Shown: one piece after another, positions 1 to 6,604 of the stretch
Layout of the letters: every line of letters begins with the position of its first letter
Numbering within the stretch: the stretch's first letter is position 1
From: Phycisphaeraceae bacterium
GTDB lineage: Bacteria; Planctomycetota; Phycisphaerae; Phycisphaerales; Phycisphaeraceae
NCBI GenBank assembly: GCA_029260615.1
Contig: JAJDCX010000034.1
Span: 62,001-126,000, forward strand
Length of the DNA stretch: 64,000 nt
Direction of reading: 5' to 3'
Made by a program: the position numbers and the translations under genes
The notes under the pieces: generated by a model
What the model saw: the letters and a program-made list of their open reading frames with translations, nothing else
Told to the model about the DNA's origin: nothing
The model's database searches: none

Positions 1-2050
1 CCATGACCAGGACACGGTCGGCCAACGTTTCGACTTCACGCAGCCGGTGTGAAGTGAAGAGTATGGCCTTGCCGGCGTCACGCTGCTTGCACAGAAGTCC
101 AAGGAAGCTGTCTCGTGCGGCGGCGTCGAGGTTGGCGGTCAACTCATCGAGCATCAGGACGGGCGGATCGGCGAGCAATGCCGCGGCAAGAGCGAGGCGT
201 TGCTTCATCCCGCCGGACAGTTCGCCGACACGCTTGGCTGCGTGTTCGGTCAGCCCGACCTCGGCCAGCACCGCGGTCACCCGGTTGCGGTCGACCCGCT
301 TGATCTTCGCAAAGAATCCCAGCAACTCTTTGGCACGCCAGTCGTCGTAAAAAGCAAGCTCCTGCGGCACATACCCCACGCATCGCTTGGCGTGCTTGGG
401 TCGTTTGCGGACGTCGAACCCGTTGATCGTGACGGTGCCTTTGCAACGGATCAGTCCCAACATGCAGCGCATCGCGGTGGTCTTGCCGGCACCGTTTGGC
501 CCCCACAACCCGACCGCTTCACCCGGCCGAAGGTCCAGGTCGAAATCCTTGACCGCGGTCAGTCGGCCAAACCGTTTGGTGATGCACCCGGCTGACAAAA
601 TTGGCTTGGTGGCTTGCTCGGGTTGATCGTTGCGGGGGCGTGGTTTCATGGGGATCGGACCTGCGGCGGCGCTTGGGCGGGCCAGTGTACCGGTGATGCC
701 GCACATCAATAGTCCGCTGGCGGACAATAGCAACACGAGCGAGGCGGTGGTGGTTGGCCATGCGGGCGGTTCGTTGCCGGAGCTAAGGGTAACAGAGGCC
801 GGGTGCATCAACGGGGCCTGGTCGGTGATCTTCACCGGCGGGCGGAAGGTCGGGACGGCCTTGGCGGCGAGTTCGACCGCCTGTTGGACGGGGCTGAACA
901 GGAACAGCCGGAGCTTGGGCTCGCGGTCCATCAGGTTTTCGAAGAGGCTCTGGGCCTTGTAGCTGATGTCGCCGATGCCGTCGCTGTCCAGGTCGAAGCC
1001 GTTGTAATCGCTCCAGAAATTGCCCCGTCCATCGACGGTGAACTTATTATTCTTGAGTTGGCCGGAGCCCAGGACGGCGACCTGTTCGACATTTTCGATG
1101 AGGTTGTTTTCGGTGAAGATGTTTCGCTCGATCGAGGGCATGAACGCCAGGCCGATATCGTTGTACGCCACCACGTTTCGGGTGAAGTGTTGAACCATGT
1201 CGATCGATGCGGGGGAGTTGTCGAAGTAGAGGCCGATGCGGTTACCTGCGAACAGGTTGTTCTGGGCTTCGACGCCATCGACTTCCTTGAGCCCCACGCC
1301 GTAGCCGCTTGGGCCGTGGTTGCGGATGAATCGGTTGTCTTTGAGTACCAGGCGTCGGCTGTACATAAGAAATGCGCCGACTGAGTTGTCTTCGAGGTGG
1401 TTGCCGATCAGCACGGTGTCGTCGCAGTACATGAAATGCAGGCCGTACCGTCCGTGTGTGACGGTGTTGTTGCGGATCATGGTGTTGTTGGAGAACCAGA
1501 TGACCACGTCCCGGCTGTTGTCGACGGTGTTATTTTCGACGACGGAGTTGGGGGAGTACCACAGCCGGATGCCGTCACCGCGGCGAGCTACAGGCAGGTC
1601 TTTGCCACCGATACGGTTGTTGCGGATGACGCTGTCGTGTGCCTTTTTTAGGTAGATGCCGAAGAGGACGTCCTCCAAGACGCTGTCTTCGATGGTCACC
1701 CGAGGTGCGAGGACGGTGATCCCTGCGTTTTCGCGGTCCAGGCTCTTGCCCGTGCCACGGATGGTGAACCCGCGCAGGGTTACGTCGGGGGCGTGGATCT
1801 GGACGACGTCGCCCTTGCCGTCACCCTGGATGATCGTGCCGGGCTCGGCGATGAGTTGGACGGACTGGTTGATAAGCAAAGGCCCGGGATAGGTCCCCGC
1901 GGGCACACATATGGTGTCGCCGGATTTTGCGGCATCGACGACCCGTTGCAAATTAAACGAACCGGCATCAACCGGCGAGGCGCACAAGTCCACTACGCCG
2001 ACGACGGCTAGGAGCCAGCCCCATACCCAGATATCCTGTCGATACTTCAT
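1..2050 (-). CDS. nosDF: NosD-NosF fusion protein (copper-site maturation, partial)
   Basis: One uninterrupted frame starts at the ATG at 2050 and runs off the left edge (at least 683 codons). Residues 1-30 form a signal peptide. Residues about 35-380 are a right-handed beta-helix with repeated N-N-x-I/V turns, as in NosD, the periplasmic protein that helps assemble the copper site of N2O reductase. A hydrophobic segment lies at about 433-452. After Met468 comes a complete ABC ATPase of NosF type: Walker A GPNGAGKTT, signature LSGGM and Walker B VLMLDE. NosD and NosF are normally separate proteins; here I read the codons across the junction and found no stop. The topology (periplasmic helix, one membrane pass, cytoplasmic ATPase) makes sense. 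NosF could also be made separately from ATG 649, but no good ribosome site precedes it. It lies downstream of nosZ. Confidence 0.9.
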   Translation of the reverse strand, partial: MKYRQDIWVWGWLLAVVGVVDLCASPVDAGSFNLQRVVDAAKSGDTICVPAGTYPGPLLINQSVQLIAEPGTIIQGDGKGDVVQIHAPDVTLRGFTIRGTGKSLDRENAGITVLAPRVTIEDSVLEDVLFGIYLKKAHDSVIRNNRIGGKDLPVARRGDGIRLWYSPNSVVENNTVDNSRDVVIWFSNNTMIRNNTVTHGRYGLHFMYCDDTVLIGNHLEDNSVGAFLMYSRRLVLKDNRFIRNHGPSGYGVGLKEVDGVEAQNNLFAGNRIGLYFDNSPASIDMVQHFTRNVVAYNDIGLAFMPSIERNIFTENNLIENVEQVAVLGSGQLKNNKFTVDGRGNFWSDYNGFDLDSDGIGDISYKAQSLFENLMDREPKLRLFLFSPVQQAVELAAKAVPTFRPPVKITDQAPLMHPASVTLSSGNEPPAWPTTTASLVLLLSASGLLMCGITGTLARPSAAAGPIPMKPRPRNDQPEQATKPILSAGCITKRFGRLTAVKDFDLDLRPGEAVGLWGPNGAGKTTAMRCMLGLIRCKGTVTINGFDVRKRPKHAKRCVGYVPQELAFYDDWRAKELLGFFAKIKRVDRNRVTAVLAEVGLTEHAAKRVGELSGGMKQRLALAAALLADPPVLMLDELTANLDAAARDSFLGLLCKQRDAGKAILFTSHRLREVETLADRVLVM

Positions 2051-2131: not shown

Positions 2132-2830
2132 CTAATCCGTCGCTTCAGGCTTCTTCTGTGGGTTATCGCCCGAGCCACTTTGAGCCTGCGTATCTAACAA
2201 GGGTTTGTACGCCGCACGGTGACGCCACAGCGCGACGAGGATCACCAACGAAGCCACGGCCGCTAAAATCAACCCGGATTGGGCCGACGCGATCGTCTCG
2301 AACTGCCCGACCTTTCCCGTCCCCAGCACAGGCGGGGTGAAGGGCTTGATCGAGCTTGATAGCGGCGCGGTCGGGTCCAGGTTGTTGCCGAAGTACGAAA
2401 GCCACAGGTGTAGATCGACCAGGAACCCGACCGGGAACAGGACCGCCGGTATGGATAGCAGCGCCGCCCATTTGCTGTGGATGAACACCGCGCCGAGTAC
2501 CAGCAGCGACAACGCGGTGATCATCATCACCGCCGTGGCCTTCTCGAATTGCGCCGCCTCGTTGAGCGGCCGCATTCCGATGTAATGGTTGAGTGAATCG
2601 ATCTCCGCAACGTCGCCGGCGAGGCGGTTAACGTACCCCGTCACATGCAAGCCCCCAGGGTACTGCGGCGCGTTGAGTTGCATGTGCCAGAACGGGAGGA
2701 AAATTGATACGAGGAGCATCACCGCAGCCAGTACCAGCAGTGCCGTAGGCAGCAGGTACCGACCGCGATGAGCGGCCCACTCGTCGGGGTGGATTCTAGG
2801 GCCAACGATTTTATTGAGTGCTTGATTCAT
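2132..2830 (-). CDS. nosB: NosB-like membrane protein of the clade II nos cluster
   Basis: About 232 residues with a transmembrane segment near the N terminus (about 30-50), two or three in the middle and one near 190-210, ending in a polar tail. The motif APQYPGGL, followed by LNHYIGM, sits in the loop after the first membrane segment. I recall such motifs from membrane proteins next to clade II nosZ genes, where nosB occupies this position. The function of NosB is not settled; a role in maturation or electron supply is inferred from position. The gene begins ten bases beyond the nosZ stop and is followed by nosDF, so it is part of that operon. I chose ATG 2830; a TTG at 2839, adjoining the nosZ stop, is an alternative. 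Confidence 0.65.
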   Translation of the reverse strand: MNQALNKIVGPRIHPDEWAAHRGRYLLPTALLVLAAVMLLVSIFLPFWHMQLNAPQYPGGLHVTGYVNRLAGDVAEIDSLNHYIGMRPLNEAAQFEKATAVMMITALSLLVLGAVFIHSKWAALLSIPAVLFPVGFLVDLHLWLSYFGNNLDPTAPLSSSIKPFTPPVLGTGKVGQFETIASAQSGLILAAVASLVILVALWRHRAAYKPLLDTQAQSGSGDNPQKKPEATD

Positions 2831-2839
2831 AAGGGGCAA

Positions 2840-4870
2840 TCACTCAGTTACGGCAGCGGCGACTTCGGTCGGCTTGACCCGCAGGTAGCCGGTCATCTCC
2901 AGGTGCAACGCCGAGCAGAACTCCGAGCAGTAGAACGTGAACGTCCCGGGCAGGTCGGCGTCGAACTCGATCGTCAGGTGCTCACCCGCTTCCAGGCTGA
3001 GGTTGATGTCGTAACCGGGGATAGCGAACCCGTGGGTCGCGTCCAGGGCACGCTCGACGTTGGTGAGGTGCCATGTAACGTGGTCGCCTTGGTTGACCTC
3101 GACGTGCTCGGGGTTGAAGTGGCTTCGGACGACCGACATATAAACATCGACGTTTTTGCCGTTGCGTTCGATCCGTTCTTCGCCGGGCTTGACCGCGTCG
3201 GGGGATACCGACTGGGTGTGCGGATCCCAGCCGACCTCGGGATAGACCTTCCAGGGCTTGAGCTTGTCGGCCTTGATGATCTGAGCGTAGTGCGGCTCGC
3301 CGATACCCATTGGCATGTCGTACAGAAGTTGCATCTTGTCGCCGGGCTTGTCGATATCCAGGAGCTGGAAGTTCTGCGGCAGCAAGGGCCCGGTCGTGAA
3401 GAATCGGTCAACCGACCACTTGTTCAACGAAACCAGGTACTTGCCGTCGGGGCTGACGGTGTCACCTTCTGCGGCGGCGATGTGGCCGACGTTGTAATGC
3501 ACCGAGGTCTTCGCGGCGACAGACCAGTCAGGCTCGTCGTGCAGGTCGGAGTACGCCCCACCCAGTGTCCAACGGGCGACCTGCGTATCCAGGAACAGTG
3601 AGGTGTAGGCGTAGCCCTTGTTGTCGAACTGGGTATGCAAGGGGCCAAGGCCCACTTCCACCTGCGCCTCTACGACGGCATCAAAGTCCAGGATCGGCAC
3701 GCCGTATTGGTCGTGCGTCCAGTTCTTGTCAGCGATCGCCTGCATCATCTTCTCGAAACTATAGATGGTGACGTGTGGATCGAGTTTGCCGGAGACAACG
3801 ATGTATTCGCCCTTGGGTGCAACGTCGACGCCGTGGGGGCTCTTGGGCTCGGGTGCGAAGAACAGCAGGCCCTCTTCGATGCTGGTCTTAAGCGAGATCA
3901 CGGGGAAGCCCTTGACCTTTGTAAACTTGCCCGCCTCGTAGACCTTGGCGGCCTTGTCGAGGTTGATGATGTGCATGTAGTCGGCGTCGCGCTGGGAGGC
4001 GCCGGCTTCGAATGGTGCGTTGCCGTCTTCGATCCCCCCGGTCGCCAACTCGGTATTGAACGAGTTGCCGAAGACCCAGCCATCACTGACGAGCTTGCCC
4101 GCATCGAAGATGTCTTGCCAGTACGGGGGCAACTCCATCGCGAACGATCGATCGGGATCGATCCGACCTTTCTCGCGGTCAAACTTCCAGAACGTTACCG
4201 ACCCGCGGTAGCTGTCGTTGTATTCGTCGATCGGTGCGTAATCCCAACCCAGCGGCGTGGCGTACTGCCCGCCCTCGATGATCCATTCGGTGTTGGGTGT
4301 GGCCACGGCCCCGCCGTGATCGTTGATCGCGATGGGGTTCTTGACGATTTGCTTGGTCTCGAAGTCGCGTAGGTCGATTACTGCGATCCGGGCGTGTGCC
4401 TTGTCGTTGATGAACAGCCACTCGCCATCGTAGTCGCCGTTGGTTTCGCTGAGGGCCGGATGGTGGGTGTCTCCCCAGAGGTTTTCCCTGCCCTCGATAT
4501 TACCATCCGCGAGGATGTCATTACCGATGCCGTAGCCCCAGCCCTGCCAGGACTCTGGTGTGAACACAGCGATCGACCGCAGCAGCCGCATGGACGGCAT
4601 GCCGATCACAAAGACCTGCCCTGCGTGTCCACCCGAGGCGAACATGATGTAGTCGTCGATCCGCCCGCTGGGTTGATAGGTCAACAACGCAGCGCGGACG
4701 TCGTCGGGGCTGAGTTCACGCTCCGCAGCAATCGCCGCGGCGGTGTCGCCGCCATTTCCACTGGAGTTCGAGGTGGCGGCGGGTGCTTGTTCGCTGTCAC
4801 CGTTACCGCAACCCGGTGTGAGAATAATCATGCCGACCAGTAGTAATGTACCCAGTAGCTTCGTCTTCAT
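2840..4870 (-). CDS. nosZ: Nitrous oxide reductase, clade II, lipoprotein-type signal
   Basis: 676 residues. It reduces N2O to N2 outside the cytoplasmic membrane. The N terminus is a Sec signal peptide ending in a lipobox-like TPGC, not a twin-arginine signal, which is the mark of clade II NosZ. A DTHH motif near residue 140 belongs to the seven-bladed propeller that holds the CuZ cluster. The C-terminal cupredoxin domain carries the CuA ligands in CSEFCSALHLEM: Cys648, Cys652, His656 and Met659. Length and motifs are complete, so the enzyme should be functional. It is the first structural gene of the cluster, 170 bp downstream of the Rrf2 regulator, and nosB-like and nosDF follow in the same direction. 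A/T-rich sequence and an inverted repeat precede the start. Confidence 0.96.
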   Translation of the reverse strand: MKTKLLGTLLLVGMIILTPGCGNGDSEQAPAATSNSSGNGGDTAAAIAAERELSPDDVRAALLTYQPSGRIDDYIMFASGGHAGQVFVIGMPSMRLLRSIAVFTPESWQGWGYGIGNDILADGNIEGRENLWGDTHHPALSETNGDYDGEWLFINDKAHARIAVIDLRDFETKQIVKNPIAINDHGGAVATPNTEWIIEGGQYATPLGWDYAPIDEYNDSYRGSVTFWKFDREKGRIDPDRSFAMELPPYWQDIFDAGKLVSDGWVFGNSFNTELATGGIEDGNAPFEAGASQRDADYMHIINLDKAAKVYEAGKFTKVKGFPVISLKTSIEEGLLFFAPEPKSPHGVDVAPKGEYIVVSGKLDPHVTIYSFEKMMQAIADKNWTHDQYGVPILDFDAVVEAQVEVGLGPLHTQFDNKGYAYTSLFLDTQVARWTLGGAYSDLHDEPDWSVAAKTSVHYNVGHIAAAEGDTVSPDGKYLVSLNKWSVDRFFTTGPLLPQNFQLLDIDKPGDKMQLLYDMPMGIGEPHYAQIIKADKLKPWKVYPEVGWDPHTQSVSPDAVKPGEERIERNGKNVDVYMSVVRSHFNPEHVEVNQGDHVTWHLTNVERALDATHGFAIPGYDINLSLEAGEHLTIEFDADLPGTFTFYCSEFCSALHLEMTGYLRVKPTEVAAAVTE

Positions 4871-5040: not shown

Positions 5041-5502
5041 TCATGTTCCACCCCCGAGTTTACAAGAAAGATCACGGTCGGGTTTTCCGTTGGAGTTATC
5101 GCACAGCGATTCTACTACGAGGTCGGCGATCTTGGTATTGCCGAAGGCTTCCTCGATCAGGCCGATTGCTTCGTCCAGGCGTTGATGCAGCGGGCACAAG
5201 CGATTGCTGTGAGAATTCCTTCCCAACGGGCAACTGTGTATCCGCTCGATGGGTTCAACGGTATTGACCACTTCCAGGATGGTCAGGTCGCTGTGCTTCT
5301 TTGTCAGCGAGTACCCCCCACCGAGTCCGCGTTTCGCTTCAACCAGGCCGGCCTTCCCAAGGGAATGCATCACCTTGGCCAGGTACGCGGCGGGCACATG
5401 GGTCGCTTTGGCGATCTGCTGAACCGTCTGGGGTTGATCGGGGTGTGACGCGAGCCACACAACTGAGCGGAGCGTGTATTCGGTGGTTTGAGATAAAACC
5501 AA
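5041..5502 (-). CDS. Rrf2-family regulator, NsrR-like with altered Cys triad
   Basis: 153 residues with the N-terminal winged helix of Rrf2 regulators (MVLSQTTEYTLRSVVWLA) and the family GLGGGYSL wing at 60-66. In NsrR/IscR-type members three cysteines bind an iron-sulfur cluster with C-X5-C-X5-C spacing. Here Cys91 and Cys103 keep that spacing, but Ser97 occupies the middle position; Glu8 could be an additional ligand, as acidic residue 8 is in relatives. It lies directly upstream of nosZ in the same direction and is the obvious candidate for controlling the cluster in response to NO or redox state. The first codon is TTG 5502, in the register expected for the conserved N terminus; an ATG at 5516 is out of frame. 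Confidence 0.85.
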   Translation of the reverse strand: MVLSQTTEYTLRSVVWLASHPDQPQTVQQIAKATHVPAAYLAKVMHSLGKAGLVEAKRGLGGGYSLTKKHSDLTILEVVNTVEPIERIHSCPLGRNSHSNRLCPLHQRLDEAIGLIEEAFGNTKIADLVVESLCDNSNGKPDRDLSCKLGGGT

Positions 5503-5755: not shown

Positions 5756-6604
5756 TTACCTGAGGCATGGGCATGACGCGTTGTCTCTGCGGCGAAGTGT
5801 GGCCATACAGGCAATCGCAAATAGGGCAGCCGTCGCGGGTTCTGGGGCCAGGGGCGCTGGGGTCGGCGATGTGCCGGCGTTCCAGTTGCCCAATATCCAG
5901 TTGAGGTCTTCGATGCCGACGAAGCGGTCTCCGGAGACGTCACCTGTGGGTGAGTTGGGGAAGGAGGCGGAAGCGTTCCAGTTGCCCAATACGGTGTTGA
6001 GGTCTTCGATGCCGACGAAGCCGTCGAGGTTGAGGTCGCCTTGGAACGCGGTGACGGTGAAGGGGATGTTCTGTTTGGTGAAGGGCTGGGGCGCTGATGC
6101 GGGGTCGGACAGAGCGGTGTTTGGGCCTAGGTCGAAGTTGCCTTGTCCCAGCGGTGCGTCTGTGTTGATGGTGAAGCGGTAGAACTGAAGGTCGCCTGCT
6201 TTGTTTGAAACCTGGTCCGCTTGGTTGACGAGCCTGCCGGTGACAGTATTTGGGGGCGAGAAGGTTTCGAAGATCATGGGGCTACCCTCGAAGAAATCGC
6301 GGGCCGGGTCGGGTTTACCGAAAGCGGTGCCGAATCCACCTGGGATGAGTGTGGCGTATGGCGGGAGGAAGAAGTCGTGTTGTGCTCCCCAGGTCAACTC
6401 GCCGTTGAGGCCGGTGTTGTCTGCGAAGACCCAAGCGGTGTAGACGGTGGTGCCGTCGGCGACAAGGACATTGGGCTGGGCATAGGTGCCGATGATGGCG
6501 TCGGCATTTGCTTGTGTTGCGACGGCGCAGATCACAGCGATCGCGGCGGTAGCCGGCGTGTAAAATAAGATGGCATAGCAGTCATTGAAATGGAAACGTC
6601 TCAT
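5756..6604 (-). CDS. Secreted protein with dockerin-type repeats and PEP-CTERM-like tail
   Basis: 282 residues. A signal peptide is followed by an unassigned beta-rich region (about 40-190). Two dockerin-type calcium-binding repeats follow (GDLNLDGFVGIEDLN and GDVSGDRFVGIEDLN, about 190-245), each ending in LGNWN. The C terminus has a PEP motif, a hydrophobic stretch and an Arg-rich end, the layout of PEP-CTERM proteins sorted by exosortase. Such combinations are common in Phycisphaerae. The protein is probably exported and processed at the cell surface; its substrate or partner cannot be read from the sequence. It stands alone, about 250 bp upstream of rrf2 and in the same direction. Confidence 0.8.
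   Translation of the reverse strand: MRRFHFNDCYAILFYTPATAAIAVICAVATQANADAIIGTYAQPNVLVADGTTVYTAWVFADNTGLNGELTWGAQHDFFLPPYATLIPGGFGTAFGKPDPARDFFEGSPMIFETFSPPNTVTGRLVNQADQVSNKAGDLQFYRFTINTDAPLGQGNFDLGPNTALSDPASAPQPFTKQNIPFTVTAFQGDLNLDGFVGIEDLNTVLGNWNASASFPNSPTGDVSGDRFVGIEDLNWILGNWNAGTSPTPAPLAPEPATAALFAIACMATLRRRDNASCPCLR

Follow-up and report, generated by a model that had tools for sequence, protein, structure and literature searches.

The window, i.e., the whole stretch of 64,000 nucleotides that was analysed, begins inside a nos cluster on the minus strand, in which the genes are ordered as Rrf2 regulator, nosZ, nosB, nosD::nosF, nosY, nosL and a gene for a cytochrome oxidase subunit III-like protein (Table 1). 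Nitrous oxide reductase, with which microbes reduce the greenhouse gas N2O to N2 in respiration, receives its copper from NosDFY. In the present cluster nosD and nosF share a single frame, which departs from the three separate polypeptides of NosDFY. From the ATG at 2050 this frame is open for 683 amino acids to window base 2, and in the genome it continues to a stop that completes a protein of 783 amino acids, within a stop-to-stop frame of 810. The window cuts the NosF part short, and the R-domain and the end of the gene fall outside it.

Table 1. Features at the nosD::nosF locus. Positions are those of the window, except where locus (L009) or contig (G000:C34) coordinates are given; residues are those of the fusion protein.
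Feature	Position	Strand	Residues	Remarks
nosD::nosF, part in the window	2..2050	minus	1-683 of 783	last 100 codons beyond the window start
nosD::nosF, whole gene	L009:9699-12050 = G000:C34:61699-64050	minus	1-783	
Signal peptide	1961..2050	minus	~1-30	read from the sequence: MKYR as charged n-region, then a hydrophobic core, then VDAG
NosD beta-helix domain	803..1951	minus	34-416	TIGR04247, PF05048
Single membrane helix	683..739	minus	438-456	predicted: NosD side out, NosF side in
Cytoplasmic linker	599..682	minus	457-484	variable but coding; without nosF-like ribosome-binding site
NosF ATPase domain (start)	2..598	minus		domain and R-domain run on outside the window
Walker A	476-502	minus	517-525	
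Signature	197-220	minus	611-618	
Walker B with catalytic Glu	143-160	minus	631-636	Glu636
H-loop	47-55	minus	His 668	
nosB	2132..2839	minus		membrane protein, 235 aa; motifs LNHYIGM and YFGNN
nosZ	2840..4870	minus		Sec-type (clade II), 676 aa; TIGR04246 827 bits, cut-off 625
Rrf2-family regulator	5041..5502	minus		upstream of nosZ; TIGR00738 111.9 bits
Secreted protein	5756-6604	minus		
nosY	L009:8872-9702	minus		start overlaps fusion stop by 4 bp; matches 7o0y_D at 4.9e-28
nosL	L009:8318-8900	minus		outside the window; lipobox-like start (CACNPGCGD), CDFCKM motif
Cytochrome oxidase subunit III-like	L009:7030-8298 = G000:C34:59030-60298	minus		outside the window, downstream of nosL

The NosZ profile score passes its cut-off and assigns the enzyme to the Sec type of clade II nos clusters; its N terminus, MKTKLLGTLLLVGMIILTPGCGNG, is lipobox-like and looks like that of a lipoprotein. 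The 235-residue product of the gene that follows found no family match in profile searches. The motifs described for NosB are LNHYIGM and YGHN (PMC9697520); the protein carries the first, and its YFGNN resembles the second, which identifies it as the NosB of a clade II cluster. The permease gene beside nosD::nosF encodes a homologue of Pseudomonas stutzeri NosY. In the cytochrome oxidase subunit III-like protein, the membrane parts are interrupted by a cytochrome c domain. A homologue of this protein occurs at the matching position in L010-L016, and it may act as an electron-transfer partner in N2O reduction. Farther upstream, the secreted protein carries dockerin-like repeats (GDLNLDGFVGIEDLN) and, at its C terminus, a sorting tail that resembles PEP-CTERM.

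Domains of the Fused Protein

The NosD part matches TIGR04247 with 444.7 bits over residues 34-416, where the curated cut-off is 300, and with phmmer residues 49-428 align to the NosD, and residues 490-697 to the NosF, of the structure 7o0y. The ABC_tran profile (PF00005) covers residues 501-639. The first-pass annotation had read an uninterrupted frame from ATG 2050 through NosD, a membrane segment near residue 440 and the full set of NosF ATPase motifs, and each element of this reading is borne out: the frame is open, the membrane helix lies at residues 438-456 with a mean hydropathy of 1.96 and positive charges after it, and Walker A, the signature, Walker B with its catalytic glutamate and the H-loop are all present within the window. 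In the structure model of a 91%-identical relative (L011) there is a helix at residues 4-22 at the N terminus, a beta-helix at residues of about 46-338, and an R-domain at the C terminus. The NosF fold of this model, R-domain included, matches P. stutzeri NosF in NosDFYL structures (7osf_B and 7o14_B, about 310 columns each). From residue 348 to 480 the model is poor and gives no confident geometry for the linker.

The Join in Close Relatives

A fused frame would also be seen if a sequencing or assembly error had hidden a stop between what are really separate nosD and nosF genes, and the assembly is still a draft, in 106 contigs. Such an error, placed between positions 649 and 840, was what the first-pass annotation had named as fatal to its own claim. 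However, the identical frame of 2352 bp, without indels and with one terminal stop, recurs in four close relatives (L010-L013), which come from separate MAGs. Among the five relatives, dN/dS is 0.11 in NosD, 0.07 in the membrane helix, 0.42 in the linker and 0.10 in NosF, i.e., purifying selection acts across the NosD-NosF junction. Together, the independently recovered frame and the selection across the junction rule out a hidden stop, and since there are also about 30 fused genes, many of them from other phyla, the chance that the two genes are separate is practically nil. The join is thus confirmed as a single open gene, which is expected to be translated as one chain.

Distribution of Fused Genes

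The survey consisted of a TIGR04247 search of about 1800 genomes, after which both domains were mapped on the open frames; in genomes with high GC content a long stop-to-stop frame is no proof of fusion, and several such frames were separate genes by domain mapping. Fused nosD::nosF genes, about 30 in total, were found in Planctomycetota, Chloroflexota, Poribacteria and Acidobacteriota. When expressed as fractions of the classified NosD loci, they amount to 7/29 in the Phycisphaerae sample, 5/12 in further Planctomycetota, 9/17 in Chloroflexota, 2/2 in Poribacteria and 1/15 in Acidobacteriota, with none among the 20 fetched and domain-mapped loci of Bacteroidota and none among the 24 fetched loci of Pseudomonadota, eight of which had no identified neighbouring nosF. 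By these counts, the fusion is found well beyond this genome, but not all planctomycetes have it. The search across planctomycete nos clusters that the first-pass annotation had proposed therefore gives a divided answer, in that the architecture recurs there, and in at least four phyla, but only in a part of the planctomycetes. One planctomycete genome (G777) contains two different fused nosD::nosF genes, at loci L113 and L122. Fused genes can be mislabelled in annotation, either as just a NosD or as just an ABC ATPase.

Number of Origins

In a tree of both domains, built by a quick method from 83 rows, the fused state requires at least eight changes, three of which are forced by strongly supported branches; the separate domain trees require nine and seven changes, with two forced in each. 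When all fused rows are held together as one clade, the cost is 139.7 log units (p-AU 3.7e-9), and a single fused clade is thereby rejected by the AU test. The fusion has probably arisen several times. Change counts are blind to direction, and because they cannot separate gain from loss, repeated splitting of an old fusion, rather than repeated gain, is possible as well. Transfer of some fused copies between phyla is also possible, because Poribacteria group with one planctomycete, and one acidobacterial copy lies near the group of the window gene.

Probable Fusion from an Anchored NosD

To see how the two genes may have been joined, consider NosD proteins that are not fused. Among Planctomycetota and Chloroflexota, the majority of NosD proteins carry a tail of about 36-60 residues, in which positive charges come after a membrane helix, while in Pseudomonadota and most sampled Bacteroidota it ends a few residues past the domain and the helix is absent. 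A C-terminal membrane helix has been reported earlier for NosD of Bacillus azotoformans (PMC3475470). All 30 fused genes retain the helix, which has a hydropathy of at least 1.24 in every one, and a helix-less NosD fused to NosF was not found in the survey. Lys and Arg are more numerous after the helix than before it in 27 of the 30 fused genes and less numerous in none (p 4e-6); the values are 2.73 after and 0.90 before in fused genes (p 4e-6), and 2.95 and 1.34 in separate NosD (p 2e-6). The predicted topology is accordingly positive-inside, with NosD outside and NosF in the cytoplasm.

In unfused pairs, nosF mostly starts at an ATGA that also holds the nosD stop, so that the genes overlap by 4 bp; the start lies seven residues ahead of the NosF domain and carries a ribosome-binding site with a median energy of -6.55 kcal/mol. 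The fusion substitutes a cytoplasmic linker of 20-50 amino acids for the stop/start junction, and the nosF ribosome-binding site is lost. The fusion probably came about when an already membrane-anchored NosD lost this junction, and a small indel at the ATGA overlap would be enough to join the two frames in a way that respects the topology. Unfused relatives show such a path, because the anchored NosD and the ATGA overlap already exist there. While the first-pass annotation was right about the fusion itself, it missed that anchored NosD already exists unfused, that the fusion recurs across four phyla or more, and that the fused genes fall into more than one clade.

Comparison with Known Nos Proteins

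As in NosDFY of P. stutzeri (PDB 7o0y and related entries), NosD, NosF with its R-domain and NosY are recognisable by sequence and the ATPase motifs are intact. There, however, the three proteins are separate chains, and each entry holds a single NosD beside two NosF and two NosY, whereas in the fusion a membrane helix links NosD to NosF within one chain. With the membrane-anchored NosD of B. azotoformans (PMC3475470) and the unfused NosD of Phycisphaerae and Chloroflexota, the fusion shares a NosD domain that has a membrane helix on its C-terminal side; the anchored NosD differs from it in ending a few to about 30 residues past the helix, with nosF as a separate gene that in this survey mostly overlaps by 4 bp. 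A NosB-NosL fusion in flavobacteria and Dyadobacter (PMC9697520) similarly joins two neighbouring accessory proteins of clade II nos clusters, but the partners are other ones, and in the present cluster NosB and NosL are encoded by separate genes. A search of a set of open-access papers, from which most subscription journals are missing, turned up no earlier account of NosD fused to NosF. Each part is already known; what sets this NosDFY variant apart as new is how the parts are put together. Other ABC transporters are not known to have a periplasmic domain joined to the ABC ATPase via a single membrane helix.

Function and Subunit Ratio

NosD-like proteins occur also outside nos clusters, and the fusion might then serve a copper or export process other than NosZ maturation. 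Such a role is highly improbable, since the fusion sits between nosZ-nosB and nosY-nosL and its relatives share the nosZ-nosB-nosY setting: nearly all fused loci have nosB on the upstream side and nosY on the downstream side, and nosZ is found wherever the flank reaches. The fusion would thus function in the copper loading of NosZ.

In the PDB entries of P. stutzeri there are 16 NosD chains in 16 entries, 30 NosF chains in 15 and 34 NosY chains in 17, corresponding to a ratio of 1:2:2, which agrees with what the first-pass annotation had stated, i.e., separate NosD and NosF proteins at 1:2. From this it had further concluded that a fusion must either force one NosD per NosF or require processing. 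The conclusion follows logically, and a third way out, free NosF from an internal start, is unsupported. The genome has only one NosD, and a second NosF was not found in it, other ABC ATPases being at most 39% identical to the present NosF over comparable lengths.

Consider first that extra NosF could be made by internal translation initiation in the linker, by which one NosD per two NosF would be restored. Good ribosome-binding sites do precede the NosF part in some fused genes (L122, GTG, -10.0; L099, GTG, -9.5; L112, GTG, -7.1; L108, ATG, -6.6; L014, GTG, and L010, ATG, both -5.8 kcal/mol). Yet -5.8 kcal/mol is reached in 22% of the fused genes, to be compared with 13% of background stretches and 71% of true nosF starts, and the best site before NosF has a median of -3.2 in fused genes, against -2.4 in background stretches taken from these genes and -6.55 kcal/mol at true nosF starts. 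The best site in the window gene has -3.3 kcal/mol and lacks conservation in L011-L013. With energies this near to background, an internal start is rejected as a general rule, although it is possible for a few genes, and for the fusion as such it is quite unlikely.

The usual 1:2 ratio, which is that of the known system, could also be restored if one chain were made and then cut in the linker to an anchored NosD and a free NosF. Residues 457-484 are the fastest-evolving part of the protein, with the dN/dS of 0.42 given above, as would suit a linker that is cut, and the linker is very variable between phyla, but no conserved motif is seen in the linkers by eye. Moreover, surplus NosD would need removal, and unfused relatives already make separate proteins, so that to fuse and then cut brings no obvious gain. 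Cleavage is for these reasons unlikely, if somewhat less so than an internal start.

The reading to be preferred, and probably the correct one, is that the fused gene encodes a single-polypeptide variant of the NosDFY complex that matures the copper site of clade II nitrous oxide reductase. In such a variant the signal peptide would export the NosD beta-helix, one out-to-in membrane helix would anchor it, and the flexible linker would hold the NosF ATPase and its R-domain on the cytoplasmic side, where they would pair with NosY. Since two NosF are required per ABC complex, either two tethered NosDs would be present in each (D2F2Y2), or one NosD would work while one is idle, and these appear to be the simplest arrangements. 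The single NosD per two NosF in the solved P. stutzeri complexes speaks against this reading. In a symmetric D2F2Y2, which is suggested tentatively as a less than even prospect, each ATPase would be linked through a membrane helix of its own to a separate copper-delivery arm, so that the two protomers of the NosZ dimer could each be supplied. If this were true, the mechanism would not depend on the one-NosD asymmetry of P. stutzeri. That NosD and NosF have been fused repeatedly in nature suggests that several lineages at least tolerate a 1:1 ratio, and therefore the need for an asymmetry of one NosD on a two-fold ABC transporter becomes directly testable.
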